A stretch of DNA of 64,000 bases from Lophium mytilinum (taxonomy: Eukaryota > Ascomycota > Dothideomycetes > Mytilinidiales > Mytilinidiaceae), in assembly GCA_010093605.1 (NCBI GenBank), contig MU004187.1, positions 2,038,830-2,102,829 on the forward strand. Reading direction: 5' to 3'. The translations under genes were made by a program, and so were the position numbers. Below the pieces are notes generated by a model that was not told where the DNA came from, did not search any database, and worked only from the letters and a program-made list of their open reading frames with translations. Numbering within the stretch: position 1 is the first letter of the stretch; each line of letters starts with the position of its first letter. Shown here piece by piece: positions 1,438 through 31,351 of this stretch.

Positions 1438-3415
1438 AAAGGTTGGAGATAAGAGGGAAGATAGATATCGAAGTTTCGGCGCAAAGTGCTGTACGGTTCG
1501 CATGATTCCAAATTAGATCACAGGCGTTGTCTCGTTTACATCATGAGTAAACTAGCATTTTCGTACATAGGAGCTGAAGAGACGACTTCTATCACGAGGT
1601 GTGAATGGCGGAATTGATCGTAACGTTATGAACATGAGCGAATTTTCCCTCGGTCACTTCAACGATACAAGCCAACCTCAGGCGATCAGCTCGTGGCTAC
1701 TTCATGCAGGTGTCCGCATGCCTCGCGCCTTGCACATTGGAGTAACGCCGGATGAGCCGAGCCATGACAGAGACAGGCTTCTGTTCCACCATACGACCTG
1801 TAATCGCGAGAAGGTGTCACCGGTGAGTCTTCAATCGAATCATTGTAGCCAAGGAGCATTCCTGTAATAAGGTGCATTCCAATATATGCATCCTGCAAAC
1901 AAGGGTTCAGCTTGACCACATGGACACAGCCCTATGGACCTGTCTCCAGGCTGCCGTCTTCCAGCCCTGGGGTACACATGTCGGTCCTCCAGCTAATGAA
2001 CTCAGAATAGGGAACGGAATAGAGAAGGGGACCAAGAAAAGGATTGTGTTCGTTAAGCTGCCCATCTACATACCTTGCGCACTCAATATTGCTGGCGCGT
2101 GTTGGTTTGGTTTCACCCTGGGAAGTTTGCAAGCAACCTAGTCCTGTTGGCATATGCCACCAATGGGGGCGATGGCACCATCGAGCTTCACCGGAGCTCT
2201 GTAGGAGGTACGCTAAGCGACGTTTGTCCCGCGCTCTCGCCCTCGCACTGATCTTGGACGGTTGCGGGAGGTGGATTGCGATCGTCTGGTGTCGTCTAGG
2301 CGTTCCGGCCATTATGTAACGTTACCTGTGGCTCAGTGACGTTCTGAGTCGAGATGAGGCGTCACTGTGGCGTCTCTCGATGGGCCACAGGGCTATTAGA
2401 TCCAAATCTGTCTTGCCGCCCTTTCTCTTATAGATTGTTTGCATCGCCTTGTAATTCTGACATTTACGTCAGCGGGAGCAAATGGTAGGAACGTGTTCCT
2501 GAATGATGACAGCCAGGATGACGCGAGAACGAAAGTTAGCCTTCCAGAATCCTACCGGCGGCACACACGAATCACGGCCCATCCCCTGGGGAGCTAACTG
2601 AGGCCGGTGACCCCTTAATACCATCCCGCGCAAGTCACATGATGTCTTACCGCCCGAACCACTGCTCAAGCTGGAGTGGCACAGACTCGGGCAGGCAGAG
2701 CAGCCGTCTGACAAACAGCCGAGAAGTGTCGACGAGCCAGCTGAGCCGAAGCAGCAGCCCGAGCCCGGGAGAGTCGCCGATGAAGGGCAACTGACGTCTC
2801 TTCCTCGCTGCTGGCGCTGCGCCCTCCTCCTTCCTGGTAGAGCCGACTATTCCTGGAGATTGGCTGGGGAGACTGGCTCGAGGGGCTGAAGCAGACGGGC
2901 GAGTAGGGCGCCAGACCAAGCCTTTTTACGAGACGGGCTCATTTGGAGGCCTTGGTAGGGGCTCGCGCTGACGGGGGAAGAGGCTGCCTAAGGAAGATGC
3001 AGGCTAGTGTAATATAAACACGGCCCGGCGACTGGACGGCGTGCTGGCGCTACTGCAGGAACCGCTGCTGCACATCCCGTGTCAAGTCTGCAATTGGCGA
3101 GGCCGCCAAAAAGCACGCCCAGGAGGAGCTAGCCTGGAACGAGGCGGCCCGTGCATGCGTCTAATCCCCCGACGTCTTCTTAACTGCTCTGCCTCTTTCG
3201 TTCCTTGCTGCTTTCTTTCTCTCACCCACACCACTCTTCTGCCTTGTGATCATTCCCCGAAGCCCAGCTTCAGCCTCTCTTTTCAGCAGCCTTGTGCGCA
3301 GTCATTCATTAATATAACTACCACCACCCACACTCTTTCGAGTACCATCCCAAACACGCTCTTTTGCACCCTAATCGTCTAATATCCACCCCACACCAAC
3401 CAACACACAGTCAAC
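1438..3415. other. Intergenic, no gene seen
   Basis: About 2 kb without a convincing gene. Short open frames overlap each other on both strands without any recognisable motif. The last ~250 bp before 3416 are pyrimidine-rich (CT tracts, ACC repeats), as in the 5' leader of highly expressed ascomycete genes, so this part is probably promoter and 5' UTR of the wall-protein gene. Confidence 0.5.
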
Positions 3416-23732: not shown

Positions 23733-24647
23733 CTTGGTTCTCGGTTCTAGTCGGGATGGGGCGCCCGGCGTTTCTCGTCCATTACAACCCTCGAATCTTC
23801 GAGCTCTCATTCTCTTGTTTCCTTGCTTCTACATTATCGCGTAATGTCGACACGCAGCCTTTCCCCGCCGCGAAGTGTGTTGATTCTCGAATTCCCGACC
23901 GATTTCCGATGGAATCAAAGTCATGATATCCTGGAGCCGAGACACGCCAGAACCAGGGATCGGTTCTGTCCCCGGCTTTGTTCCCGGCGACCCTAGACAG
24001 GGGAAGTGCTGACGCAAAAGTTTTTCCTCATGCATGCATGTTGATGGTCAAGGGGACAACAACGGCAATGCTGCATGACTATGAGGTTGAGCACATGCTA
24101 CCTTGCCATCGTTTTTTCCCTAGTTACTGCTCTCATCTACTCTAAAGAAGTAGAAGTAGCCTCGATTTCGAATACCTCTATACTCTGGTTCGCATCTATC
24201 ATACTAAGATACCAACACGTACATACCTATTGGTACGAATGCCATGTACCGGGACCGTGAAAAATAGCTGCAGCATAGCGAAAAGCATGAACATGTTCCC
24301 TCCCCTCTATACGCGACGCGCAGGCCCTGTTCTAGTTCCGCCTCGGCTCCACTAGCACAATGACTCGCAGGCGACAGACCCCACTCCCCAGATGCAGGGG
24401 AATCCGTTCAGCTGAATGACATGCGGAGAAACCGTCCGACTTCACAAACTTCGCTCGCAGTCAGCTTAAAAAGAGTCTACTACAAGAAATAAACGGTAAT
24501 CTGTGTCTCGAGATTCGTTTTTTATGTTGTGATCGACCCGACCTCCAAGCTAGAGCGACATCGACCAAGCTTCAATAGAACGGTCAGGGCGCAAGACGAC
24601 GCGTCCTTCCCGCCACCCCACCATAATCGATCACCGCCAAAACCAAA
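23733..24647. other. Spacer between the two ABM genes
   Basis: About 900 bp with no gene seen. Short frames on both strands lack motifs. It presumably holds the 3' end of copy 1 and the promoter of copy 2. Confidence 0.4.
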
Positions 24648-25076
24648 ATGTCGAAAGCGGTTCAATTGGTCACGACGCTGACGCCGGTGGACGGGAAGAA
24701 AGACGATGTGGGTTTGACAAGACTTGATCAACACCGCATAGTGTCGAAACTTACCATGTTCGGCAGGTCCTAAAGATCATCACGGACATGGCGGTGGAAG
24801 TCGAAGCAGAGGAGGTTGGGTGCCTTGGTGTGGATGTAATGTGGCACGACGACACTGATTCGTTCATCCTCGTCGAAAGGTAAACAACTCCAAGTCGTTG
24901 CTGCTCTGCTTACGATTAATTGTGTATTGTGTAGATTTAGGGATCAGGCAGCGTTTGAGTTCCATTTCAAGCAGCCGTATGTGGTAGCGTTCAAGAGCAG
25001 TCCGGTGGCGCTTACTTGCCTCGAGGCTATGGATGTTAAAATCTGTTCTGTAGTTGCGGGTACTTTCAGTAGATAA
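24648..25076 (+). CDS. ABM-like (dimeric alpha/beta barrel) protein, tandem copy 2
   Basis: Three exons, 24648-24707, 24767-24879 and 24935-25076, give 104 residues; no single frame shows it. Introns are GTGGGT..CAG and GTAAAC..TAG. The middle exon is 113 nt, identical in length to that of copy 1, and both introns fall at the same residues and phases (after Gly-Lys-Lys-Asp-x; before Phe-(K/R)-Asp). The F-R-D-Q-A-A-F-E-F-H-F-K-Q-P-Y segment matches copy 1. The two genes therefore arose by tandem duplication but are diverged in sequence. Same fold and same uncertainty of function as copy 1. Confidence 0.7.
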
Positions 25077-25366
25077 AATGGCTTTTTGTTCTTAAAGATT
25101 TTCTGCTCATGTTTCCTGCCGTTTCGGGTTTTCTCGTAGTCACTTCATCTTGATCCTTCAGGGCTGAGGTGCTCTTTTTTCGAACATTTCTTTATGCTAA
25201 TGTAAACGACCATACTAGGGAAATTAGACACTGGAATTAGAAATTACGCACTCAATATTCGCCTTAAAAGACTATGGTAAAACTTGCACGGCTTCTTCGC
25301 GCAGCACGTGACCTACGTAATTTAGCCTAAGTAGATTTAGGCTTATATTGAATGAATTTATAACTT

Positions 25367-25374
25367 TAAAATAA
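25367..25374. repeat. Left 8-bp target-site duplication (TAAAATAA)
   Basis: TAAAATAA directly abuts the left end of the 25375-25907 element and is repeated exactly at 25908-25915. Confidence 0.75.
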
Positions 25375-25907
25375 GGCCAGTGCTACGTGTACGACCCCTT
25401 TTTACTACCTGCACGATGTCTTTTTGCTACACGTACGACCTGCCCCCCTAATAGCCCTTTTACTACATTTTGATTGGCTCGGAGGGCTTAAAGGAAGGTC
25501 CGGCTATCTACTTAAATACCTATTCGCACGTGTAACCTTCCGTTTTATCTAGAGACATTCTATTTTATATAGTTATAAGTATACTTATTAAAATCTTAAC
25601 TAGTAAGCCGCCTTATAATGCTGCGGCTGTCAACTGCGCTACAAGAGTCCTTGGCGGTCTTAATACTATCGCGGTAAGCTTTAGGAGGCGGGTGTAGGTT
25701 GCAAGCGGTTCCTCTATAGTTATAGAGGTTAAGGTGTAGGCATAGGTAATTAAGTTTAATTCTAATACGCATTTAGAATCTATCTATGCTCCGGACTAGT
25801 TGGCCTAATAGGTAAGCTAATTAAAACGCAGTAAAAGGGGAGTTTGTATATGTAGCAAAAAGATATCGTGCAGGTAGTAAAAAGGGGTCGTACACGTAGC
25901 ACTGGCC
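25375..25907. mobile_element. 533-bp non-autonomous DNA transposon with long terminal inverted repeats
   Basis: The ends are inverted repeats starting GGCCAGTGCTACGTGTACGA. They match over about 57 bp with one difference, then stay similar for another ~35 bp with G-to-A/C-to-T type changes. Perfect 8-bp duplications TAAAATAA flank the element. Eight-base duplications are typical of hAT (and P-like) transposons, although the terminus is not a plain CAG start. There is no transposase frame inside, so it is a MITE-like derivative. The near-identical termini suggest fairly recent insertion. Confidence 0.75.
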
Positions 25908-25915
25908 TAAAATAA
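25908..25915. repeat. Right 8-bp target-site duplication (TAAAATAA)
   Basis: Exact copy of 25367-25374 immediately after the right terminal inverted repeat. Confidence 0.75.
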
Positions 25916-26399
25916 ACGTGTTCGCAAGAGTATAGATTTACTAGAGAATTATACTAGAGAACTTTACTAGAGATTAATAATATATTAAGATAAATAAATA
26001 AAAGTAAAGAGTATAATTTTTAAAAGAGCCCTAGCCCTCTAATTACTTAAGTATAAAAATTATAATAAATAGAAGAATATATATATAACCTTTCTTTGTA
26101 TTATTTAGAGGCTGTTAATAGTGCTCCCCGCGATTCTCATACAAATTTTAGTAAAGAACGCCGAGAAAAAAGCGCCAAGCGGTATCTGCTATTTTGAATT
26201 CGACAAATACTTACCCCACCCTTTGTGGCTTCTCCGACGCTTCATCGGCCGGACCCTTGCGTGCCAAGGAGAACGTTGGACTTCGTTGCTTTTGACTAGA
26301 AGATTCATAATCAACCACCACCCGGCCTCGACTCCTCTTCTTTTACTCTGGCATGTCCTCTCCCTCCAATGCCTCTCACGGCCTCCCAATCTAGCTTCT

Positions 26400-29300
26400 A
26401 TGGCACTATTGCCTCCACTACGACCGGCTGCCTCACGGAGCGCAACGCGATGGCTATCCGGAGGTGGCAAATATAATCTCGAGCGCTCTCCCAGGGCGCT
26501 GTACTCGGTGCGAGGGATTGCGACCAATATTTCTGCCGCAGAGCCAGCTGTGCACTTCCCAGGGGCGTCAACTAGCATATCGACGCCGGAGCAACCTTCG
26601 TCGCAAGGATCGCGAAGAGAAGCTGTCAAGGCCGCGAAGCCCTTTTCGGATTTCTTGACCGATACGTTTAACAGACAGCATGACTACCTTCGCATCAGTA
26701 TCACAGAGCGGTGCAATTTGCGCTGTCTGTATTGCATGCCCGAGGGTACGATCATCATCATTTCCAACCAGTCCTTTCATCGCTAATCGATCTTCTATTT
26801 GCAGAAGGCGTCCCTCTCTCCCCGCAGTCCCACCTCCTTACAACGCCCGAGATACACTACCTATCCTCTCTCTTCGTCAACCAAGGCGTGACAAAGATCC
26901 GGCTTACTGGCGGCGAGCCCACGGTCCGCCGCGACATCCTCCCGCTCATGCAATCGATAGGCTCCCTGCGACCCCAGGGCCTTCGCGAGCTCGCCATAAC
27001 TACGAACGGCATTTCGCTCCATCGAAAATTAGACGCGATGGTTGAGGCAGGTCTTACGGGTGTGAACCTTAGCTTGGACACACTCGATCCGTTCCAGTTC
27101 CAGATCATGACGCGGCGCAAAGGCTTCGATGCGGTCATGCGCAGCATTGATCGAATCTTGGAGATGAAGAATCTCGGTGCCAATTTGAAGCTCAAGATCA
27201 ACTGCGTAGTCATGCGTGGGTTGAACGAGCGCGATATTGTGCCATTTGTGGAACTCGGCCAAGAAAAGGACATCGAGGTGCGATTCATAGAATACATGCC
27301 TTTCGACGGAAATAAATGGAGCAAGGGGAAGATGATACCTTACCAGGAAATGCTGGATCTTATCCGCGTCAAGTATCCTGGGCTCAGACAGGTCAAGGGC
27401 CACAAGAATGATACGAGTAAGACTTGGGAGGTCCCGGGCTTCGTTGGAAAGATTGGTTTCATTACCAGTATGACGCATAACTTCTGCGGGACCTGTAATA
27501 GGCTTCGGATTACAAGTGATGGCAATCTCAAAGTCTGCCTATTCGGGAACACTGAGGTCTCATTGAGAGACCTACTACGACAAGATAACAACGGCGAGCC
27601 GATCGACGAAGAAGCCTTTGAGGCTATCAAGAAGAAGGAAATGGACCGGCGGCAGGGCTTATTTGGCGACGAAACCGCACTTGGTTGGGGCGAGCGCGAG
27701 CGAGAATTGCTGCACGTCATTGGTGCCGCTGTGAAGAGGAAGAAGGAAAAGCACGCGGGCATGGGCGAGTTGGAGAATATGAAGAACAGGCCTATGATTT
27801 TAATTGGTGGGTAGGTCGGTCTTTTTGCCATCATTTCATTTGTCTATATTTGTGTTGCGACAGTCCATGTAACGAAGTTATGGCAAAGCTTGCATCACAC
27901 TAAAGGCTATGTTGGTCATGCTGTGTGGACATTTTGGGCGTTCTGTCTTATGGATCTAAGTTTGGATTCTTCGGCATCATATATACCTCGTATACCTACG
28001 CTCTCTTCCCTGTTTCCACCATCAAACACTTCATGTCCTATCATCGGCTGCCTCGTGTGTCATGACTAACTCGTGAGTATAGATGAATCGAGCCAAAGTT
28101 CGCCATTGTCTTCTGCCACTACCCCGTCCAGCCATTCAACTCGTCTTTTATCCCCGAACTCGCTTGTACGGTCCTGGAGCTCAATACCCCCGCAGCTGTT
28201 TGCGGTACAACACCAAATGCAGTCCCCGTTTAGAACAAGCATTCGAACTTACAGAACTGCCTATCGGACTCGACTCGTGAGGAAGAGGAAAGACGCCGAT
28301 GATTCCAAGTCGCCAGAAAGCTCCTTTCGCACCTATCTTCCCTCCAACCACATCAAAAAGTACATTGGTGGCAGAAGTCCAATTTCCAGGGGCCCAGGTA
28401 GGAAGAAGCCAGGCTACAGGCCGCGTCTTCCAGTCCTGCCAGCGAAACGCATCACTAGTCGGGCTCGGAAATCGAGATCTTTACAACTAAGTCGCTCGGC
28501 GATGCGCAGGATATTCAGGAAACGGATGCACTACAGGTCGTGGGTGGCGTTCGCAAAGATCTGGTCCGAACGCCGAAAAATGTTCAAAGCTCAATCGATA
28601 GGAGAGTCGCTCGGCTCACAACCTCCCTACCTCACTAAGATCATTCGTCCTTCTCCCCCTCCCCTCCCTAGCAAGACCTATCGCACCAAGATCATTCGTC
28701 CATCTCTAGACCGGATAGAAGAAGACTTGTTGTTGAGCCGTTACAAGATTGATTCCAAAGCTAGAACTGAAGAGCTTGAGCAAAAGTTGTGGGAGCTTGA
28801 GAATAGATTCAATGCGATTCGGAATCCCTGTAAGAATGAGAGAATCCTCGCGACGCAAAGTCGCGGGGCACGGTGGGATGATGTTCTTGCATTCGCTCTT
28901 AAGCTGGCGAAAACGGAAGACTCATTGGCACAGGCGCTTTCACAGACGCGGAACGAATCACAGGCTCAGACCTCGTCTATGCAGACGCCGCGATTCGAAG
29001 GATCAGAAGATTTGGCAGATATCGTTCGTAAACTCATCAAGGCCAAGCGAAAGGCGAGGGTGGAAGAGGACGGCTCAAATATGCAACCGCGGTTAGAGGA
29101 AGATACGACGGACGCAGGCGGGAAAGAGACTACCACCAGGCGTAACTTCGACACAATGATGTTACGATTTACCGCCTCGGGACCGCCTGTACTAATCCCC
29201 ACGGAAGAGTTGATCAGACGTTACGATGCGTGGGTAGCCAACCAGTCGATATCAGAAACCCCCATCAGCATACGCACTCCATTCCTTTCATCGGAGTCAC

Positions 29301-31351
29301 CCCCGAGTCTGCCCACGGGTGAGCTGTTCCAACGCTATCGTGTTATTCTTCACATAAGGCACCTGGTCCTGAAGTTGAAAGAGCTCAACCGTCGGCTGAA
29401 ATGCCTGAACCCTGAGGCCCTGACAGTGGAAGAGCCTCAGCAAAGAACTAAGGCAAAATTACGCATGGCTGTTTTGAAGGTGGCGCGGAGGTTAGCGTAT
29501 GCGGAAGGGGCACAGACAGTAGATCCGCAGGGTCTTTACCACCTGCAATCTGGACGGAATCAGAAGCGGGATGTCATGCCCCGCCAGAGAAGGATCTCGC
29601 TGGCCTCGGTCTCGCCTTTGGCTTTGGCTGATTATGCGAAGAAAAATCTGAGAGCGACCCGTTCCGAAGTGTACCGGCCAACAGTAGGATCCCGTGCCCG
29701 CATTATCTCCAGGGTGGAAGATACAGAGGGAAATGGGATTTCTAGGCCAGTAACTATAAACATGGAACAATTACCTAAATCGCGAAGGATTGATGTGCAA
29801 GCCGATGGGATAGAGAAGATCGAAACAAGTCCTGTTACAAAGTCGCTACAAACACTAAAGCCGAAACTAAAAAGGTTGCAAGTAAGAGGGATGCAAGTGG
29901 TTTCGCCACTTGTTGAAGAGCCGGGTGCGAAAACCAGGGCCGACATACCGTCTGATGACATAGGCGCTGGCGATAAGAATAGCTGGTCACTACAAGTTGG
30001 AGGTCCCGCGAAAGTCGCAGGTCAAGTTGGCATAGAAGAAACACGGTCAGCCAAGATCACGGTACCTCTAACAGCACGCTTTGATCGCGCTCTCGCAGAA
30101 GGGGCAAAACTCATAGGTACAACTTTGAAATTAAAGCTGCCAAAGGCTCGGTTTGATCCCCCTTCCAAGGAGTCGGTTGGGTCGATTCAGTTGCGACTGA
30201 CAGGCGTGTCGAAGAGGGCGGAGCGGCGGGCGGGGCTGCGGGCAAAGCAGCGAGCGGAGAAAGAAGAAGACACGAGACTGAAGGGGCAATCTGGGTCGGA
30301 GCTAAGTGAGGAGCAGAAGCCTTTCCCTGGAGCGAAAAGGGTTCCGCTGCACTGGTTGTCACCCGATGCAGACAGTAACGCCAATACTGAGACATCGAAT
30401 ACAGCCGAGCGGAATTGGAAGAAGCTTGCAGCCGAGCAGGAGCTGAGGGAGAAGACGCTTGCACTCGAACAAGAACAAGTGAAATCGGAGCAGCAGGTAT
30501 TACAGAGCACAACAGTAAGGAGTGATTCAAACGTAGCCGCTCCTGGAGCGTTGAAGAAGTCGCCGTCTGTCCAGATAAGGTATCATGTTCATACGGCAGC
30601 ACTCCCATTTACGCCCTCAAATAGCTTCGAAATACGGAACACGAAGCGAGCTACGCCCACGTCCACGCTGCAATCTCCTCGTCTGGTTTTGGGTGGTCCA
30701 CGCTTGCAGCCTCTCGCCCTCGCTCCTCGGACAAAGAGATACTCAACCCTGCGTCCCAAACCTGAAGCAGATCAACCTCGAGATACAAAACAGGAACCAG
30801 CATTTTCGGAATCAGTCACGCCCTCCCACCTCCCCCACCTTACCCCTTCCGGCTCTGCCCACATGGTCTCCATCACAGCCAAGTCCGCCACTGCCCGCAC
30901 CGCTATCGCTGTCGGCCGCGTCCGCTTCTCAAACCCCGCGCCCCTTCCGCTCATCAAGTCCAACGCGCTGAAAAAGGGCGATGTGCTCGGCGTAGCGCGC
31001 GTCGCGGGCATCATGGCGAGCAAGAAGTGCCCGGAGATCATACCGCTCTGCCACCCAATCCTACTCAGCCACGTCGGGGTCGAGCTCGCTCTTGTGGACA
31101 GCGGGGATGAAGGAACCGACCACGGTGCTGTCGAGATCGAAGCGAAGGTGCAGTGTACTGGCGCTACAGGCGTTGAGATGGAAGCGCTGACAGCGGTGAT
31201 GGGCGCGGCGCTGACAGTTGTGGACATGTGCAAGGCGGTTGATAAGGGTATGGTGGTTGAGGGGGTTACGGTGGTGTTGAAGGAGGGCGGCAGGTCCGGG
31301 ACGTGGAGAAAGGACGGGTGGGTCAGTCGATTTGACCAACTAGAAATCTAG
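26400..31351 (+). CDS. cnxABC: MoaA-MoaC fusion for molybdenum cofactor synthesis (CnxABC/MOCS1-like) with a ~917-residue linker
   Basis: Exons 26400-26745, 26805-27806 and 28083-31351 give 1538 residues. Res. 1-~80 are a mitochondrial-type presequence (Arg/Ser/Ala-rich). MoaA is a radical-SAM GTP 3',8-cyclase: the 4Fe-4S motif C-x3-C-x2-C (CNLRCLYC) spans the first intron, TGGEPT follows, and the C-terminal cluster is CGTC-x13-C near 27490. MoaC is the last ~170 residues from HMVSITAK near 30860, with [12 protein letters not shown] and the [10 protein letters not shown] / DMCKAVDK motifs. Together they make cPMP (precursor Z) from GTP. The linker (28083-~30835) is Lys/Arg/Ser-rich, has predicted-looking helical charged stretches and no domain I recognise; it is far longer than I would expect. 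If the second intron is retained, MoaA ends in free Gly-Gly at 27811. Confidence 0.85.
27806..28082 (+). promoter_or_regulatory. Alternative-splice switch at the MoaA Gly-Gly-stop
   Basis: The MoaA frame ends ATT-GGT-GGG-TAG (27803-27814). A donor GTGGGT starts at 27807, inside the first Gly codon, and pairs in phase with the TATAG acceptor ending at 28082, preceded by an ACTAAC branch site. Splicing removes Gly-Gly and the stop and enters the MoaC frame; retention yields MoaA with a free C-terminal Gly-Gly. A second donor GTAGGT at 27811 pairs in phase only with the GTGAG acceptor a few bases upstream of the main one. Confidence 0.6.

Follow-up and report, generated by a model that had tools for sequence, protein, structure and literature searches.

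An intron at a Gly-Gly-stop that appears to let one Lophium mytilinum gene encode two molybdenum-cofactor enzymes

How might one fungal locus encode both a MoaA enzyme with a free C-terminal Gly-Gly and a MoaC enzyme that lies further along in the same direction? The free C-terminal Gly-Gly is required for the activity of the human protein MOCS1A. The question is raised by a gene at 26400-31351 of the window, i.e., the whole 64,000-nucleotide stretch of Lophium mytilinum DNA analysed here, where translation yields a model of 3 exons and 2 introns with MoaA followed by MoaC. To judge from its sequence, this gene appears to encode 2 molybdenum-cofactor enzymes by means of a single intron that is either kept or removed. 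A six-frame search of the genome (43.18 Mb in 24 contigs), with scoring confined to the best candidates, returned one match to MoaA (1 of 2 candidates scored) and one to MoaC (1 of 1 candidate scored), both at this locus. The molybdopterin oxidoreductase family has three matches elsewhere in the genome, suggestive of a need for, or use of, the cofactor. The third of these (L005, G000:C1:1288372-1288887) shows three internal stops in the six-frame reading, attributable to introns or to a broken copy. The region immediately upstream of the gene, 24001-26000, has a G+C content of 0.442, the minimum among the window's 32 two-kb blocks. The features of the gene are as follows.

26400..26745, + strand: exon 1, with the predicted ATG start codon and a putative Arg-rich, presequence-like N-terminus
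26746..26804, + strand: intron 1, 59 nt, within MoaA, placed by reading frame; joining its flanks gives ...YCMPEEGVPLSP
26805..27806, + strand: exon 2, remainder of MoaA; its last base opens the first Gly codon
27806..27814, + strand: Gly-Gly-TAG closing the intron-retained MoaA of 451 aa, by translation
27807..28082, + strand: candidate switch intron, 276 nt, placed by candidate sites and frame; kept, it would give MoaA-Gly-Gly, and spliced out, MoaA-linker-MoaC
27811..27816, + strand: second candidate donor, GTAGGT, overlapping the 27807 donor; with acceptor 28082 it gives Gly-Gly-TGA
27815..27820, + strand: third, weaker candidate donor, GTCGGT, adjoining the stop on its 3' side; Gly-Gly-TAG is kept
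28065..28070, + strand: candidate branch site ACTAAC, 13 nt upstream of the acceptor end, from intron-pair scoring
28083..31351, + strand: exon 3, linker and MoaC in a single unbroken frame of 1093 codons; stop at 31349-31351
28083..30862, + strand: linker, 927 aa, net charge +70, without a family match
30863..31291, + strand: MoaC domain, matching the full Pfam profile PF01967 (E 2.5e-48), beginning at Met1377 of the fusion

The MoaA part is readily recognizable. Exon 1 encodes CNLRCLYC at 26712-26735, which we take to be the radical-SAM motif, and exon 2 matches the Pfam families Radical_SAM (E 4.3e-19) and Mob_synth_C (E 3.6e-38). At its end, positions 27803-27814 read ATT GGT GGG TAG, i.e., Ile-Gly-Gly-stop, such that an intron-retained MoaA of 451 aa finishes with ...MILI-Gly-Gly-TAG, the stop ending at 27814. 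Within the first of these Gly codons, the GT at 27807-27808 comes directly after base 1 (G|GTGGGT; phase 1), and joining this donor to the acceptor at 28082 opens a frame of 1,538 aa, ...MILI-DESSQ..., which reaches MoaC without Gly-Gly. The preliminary description, which placed a donor inside the Gly codons, had retention produce MoaA with Gly-Gly and had splicing drop Gly-Gly together with the stop and enter MoaC in phase. These points hold: the 27807 donor is half of a joint-best pair (see below), the 451-aa frame carries an end that is conserved in bacteria, and the fusion frame exists as a potential of the sequence. However, the donor in the Gly codons, although it does fuse the frames, is not the sole GT. 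There are four within 14 nt, at 27807, 27811, 27815, and 27819, and, with acceptor 28082, only the one at 27807 achieves the fusion, the other three all giving a 451-aa product that ends in Gly-Gly-stop. Splicing at 27811 yields this end once again because the joined codons, completed by bases of the acceptor exon, become GGT GGA TGA. A GT at such a junction is by itself not rare, given that GGT accounts for 19.9% of the 1,637 Gly codons sampled; what lifts the case above chance is not the GT itself but its acceptor, the resulting frame, and the fact that the Neurospora crassa intron starts at an identical position.

The Gly-Gly end proved uniformly conserved in the comparison set, the best 80 of 589 confirmed bacterial relatives of MoaA: it is present in 78 of the 78 that have a stop in the retrieved DNA, the other 2 having none in the locus. 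Eight of the 80 (L027-L034, mostly Rhodothermales) share the exact RPMILIGG tail of the fungal protein. These eight, with 45-48% identity to the fungal MoaA, are also at the top of the best 80 of 589. The stop that is read under intron retention thus probably corresponds to the end of the ancestral enzyme.

Does the putative intron resemble others in this genome? Weights for donors and acceptors were trained on 51 putative introns (from 144 candidates) in 264 kb of sequence, namely, the window and 20 stretches of 10 kb, with 5,579 bases N; these 51 introns are themselves predictions, at most 130 nt long and picked partly by their branch motif. The ranking of site pairs took no account of frame and used branch weights assigned manually from a consensus. 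Among the 212 donor/acceptor pairs, 27811-28082 (20.54) and 27807-28082 (20.53) came out on top, 0.01 bit apart, and just 15 of the 212 produce the long fusion. The acceptor at 28082, together with ACTAAC, has the highest acceptor-plus-branch score of the 33 AGs between 27840 and 28420 (14.86 bits vs 9.15 for the next, a lead of 5.7); relative to the 51 putative introns, this acceptor stands at the 60.8th percentile. The donors at 27807 and 27811 both score 5.67, which corresponds to the 33rd percentile of the 51 and to the top 5.4% and 5.3%, respectively, of the GTs sampled, and the donor at 27815 scores 4.85 (top 9.1%). For intron 1, the donor falls at the 21.6th and the acceptor at the 96.1th percentile of the same set. 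Neither the hexamers GTGGGT, GTAGGT, and GTCGGT nor that of the intron 1 donor occur among the 51 trained donors. Base composition separates the putative intron 2 (GC 0.433, codon score negative in three frames) from exon 2 (GC 0.527, in-frame score positive). A stricter intron scan of the 264 kb, with its 5,579 bases N, does not include the 27807-28082 intron among the 18 that it lists. Given that 13 of these 18 are 50-99 nt in length (3 are at least 150 nt), an intron of 276 nt is long for this genome. Pairing these donors with the AG at 27863, for a shorter intron of modal length, was considered as well, but such an intron is absent from the 25 top pairs of the 212. We also considered an RNA hairpin that could mask the donors; a predicted stem does span both, yet in three stretches it is no better than shuffled sequences (z of -0.96, -0.41, and 0.17), so that this idea was rejected.

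Beyond the acceptor, the frame leads through an unusual linker. Its in-frame codon score is positive but weak, at 0.084 per codon vs 0.242 in exon 2, and a Pfam search of exon 3 to E 1 found nothing besides MoaC. We looked for introns within the linker whose removal would reduce its length, but no candidate passed strict donor, acceptor, and branch criteria. Nor does the linker appear to be a known domain: it has no Pfam match, and a single PDB match (E 0.32) was taken as chance. The genome holds no second copy that we could find, and a blastp self-comparison (at most 14 lines of output) gave no internal repeats. An AlphaFold model of exon 3 from single-sequence input has a mean pLDDT of 37.3, with the MoaC part poor as well, and is therefore uninformative. 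Just past the junction lies an Arg-rich, presequence-like stretch, 28172-28291 (fusion residues 480-519), that contains Met495, encoded at 28217, one of the in-frame Met codons along with Met1377 at 30863. In a simple count of charge and hydrophobic moment, which does not discriminate targeting signals, residues 562-601 and 536-575 outrank 480-519, which come third, whereas the expected N-terminal presequence is last (ninth) of the nine stretches listed. Because this score puts two linker stretches above residues 480-519 and the true N-terminus below them, an internal targeting signal at 480-519 is a lead only.

Taking these observations together with what is known from another fungus, we consider it very probable that the locus is of the fungal nit-7/cnxABC/MOCS1 type and operates like nit-7 of N. 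crassa. As described by Wajmann et al. 2020 (PMC7232280), with reference to Probst et al. 2014, the N. crassa intron 1460-1696 encodes the double glycine, the unspliced form giving NIT-7A and the spliced form NIT-7AB; NIT-7AB is imported into mitochondria, where NIT-7B is released, and nitrate increases the unspliced form. By analogy, keeping the 27807-28082 intron would produce a mitochondrial GTP 3',8-cyclase (MoaA/NIT-7A type) whose Gly-Gly end is free, whereas splicing at 27807 would remove Gly-Gly and the stop and form a MoaA-linker-MoaC precursor. The A part of this precursor, devoid of Gly-Gly, would presumably be inactive and would act as a carrier of MoaC into the mitochondrion; freed there, the MoaC part would be the cPMP synthase. 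The frames, candidate sites, phases, domains, and conservation of the Gly-Gly end come from the present sequence analysis, whereas we infer the existence of both transcripts, import, cleavage, and regulation from N. crassa; likewise, the import and the release of NIT-7B in that fungus suggest that the fusion is probably not itself a working MoaC. Given that donor 27811 is equal in score, the fused product could be minor.

Indeed, splicing might occur chiefly at 27811 or 27815, such that almost all mRNAs would specify a Gly-Gly-terminated MoaA and few the fusion. This possibility overlaps with the nit-7-like reading, so that the odds of the two are not exclusive, and we regard it as unlikely although deserving of some weight: 27811 ties with 27807, the frame still closes with Gly-Gly-stop when either 27811 or 27815 is joined to acceptor 28082, and a comparable non-fusing variant, delta1469-1696, is described for N. 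crassa. However, the six-frame search gave no second MoaC match in the genome, so that MoaC must come from this locus, and, in N. crassa, nitrate growth requires the fusing splice but not the other: a gene incapable of delta1460-1696 supports no significant growth on nitrate, whereas one incapable of delta1469-1696 supports wild-type-like growth except for a reduced hyphal diameter (PMC7232280). A variant that we find doubtful is that 27807, for the fusion, and the equally scoring 27811, 4 nt away, together form the switch and that the basic 927-aa linker with its Arg-rich stretch is a separate module for MoaC import or processing, closer to the human than to the N. crassa route. If true, this would be a two-donor switch in which MoaA is made with or without removal of the intron, as 27811 rebuilds Gly-Gly-stop. 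Import of AB by a human-type internal signal was tested in N. crassa and not found (PMC7232280).

Alternatively, the locus could harbor two genes or a bicistronic message, with MoaA ending at its stop and MoaC, with or without a long N-terminal extension, translated unfused from a start of its own, e.g., Met495 or Met1377. In-frame Met codons are indeed available at 28217, within the Arg-rich stretch, and at 30863, and such expression is discussed for Aspergillus nidulans cnxABC, per Wajmann et al. (PMC7232280). Nevertheless, the acceptor, branch site, and frame suit a fusion, and N. crassa NIT-7B expressed separately from Met623, alongside NIT-7A, is not mitochondrial and does not restore wild-type-like growth (PMC7232280), all of which makes this scenario improbable in our view. 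That the GT sits in the Gly codon by chance, and the proposed splice does not take place, would be compatible with the abundance of GGT among Gly codons and with the presence of four GTs in 14 nt, but seems very improbable when set against a joint first place among 212 pairs, a fusion frame found in 15 of the 212, and the identical codon and phase in N. crassa.

The preliminary description drew its precedent from animals, and PMC9607355 bears this out insofar as human MOCS1 transcripts are alternatively spliced where the MoaA part ends, so as to encode either A on its own or an AB fusion from which B is freed by cleavage. The human choice differs in that it is made in exon 9, and the AB protein bears an internal mitochondrial signal (PMC9607355); cleavage of human AB is placed after import by PMC9607355 and in the cytosol by PMC7232280. 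Animals are not the only precedent, however, because a fungal one, N. crassa nit-7, is also in print (PMC7232280, the sole paper on a fungal splice switch found, judging by titles and abstract openings); A. nidulans cnxABC is called a nit-7 homolog there, and is compared here by that mention alone. From the construct table of that paper, in which NIT-7A ends at 1467 and exon 1 at 1459, we compute that the N. crassa intron splits codon 487 behind its first base. Thus, in both fungi, a single locus carries an intron (a candidate here) that interrupts the first of the two Gly codons before the stop, directly after base 1, with 7 nt from the intron start to the last base of the stop (1460..1467 there, 27807..27814 here), and in both there is an extra downstream donor, likewise a candidate here, whose use spares Gly-Gly-stop (delta1469-1696 there; compare 27815 here). 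The isoform switch that had been proposed for this locus is supported by this agreement with an experimentally described case. The differences from N. crassa (PMC7232280) concern the surroundings of the switch: the intron measures 237 nt there vs 276 nt here, and additional GTs are found at +4, +8, and +12 here vs +9 there. The linker is not near the N. crassa length of about 136 aa (from M623 and the length of exon 1), but, at 927 aa, is ~7 times as long, although no source consulted names length as defining. L. mytilinum also has an additional MoaA intron, intron 1, which, given that nit-7 is a single-intron gene, was either gained here or lost in N. crassa. Because the same device has already been demonstrated experimentally in nit-7, the L. 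mytilinum gene is a new, well-formed example of a mechanism already known. As a further fungal case at the same codon base, it supports a conserved position of the switch and, with the known mechanism unchanged, offers a form of it in which donors compete and the linker is very long.
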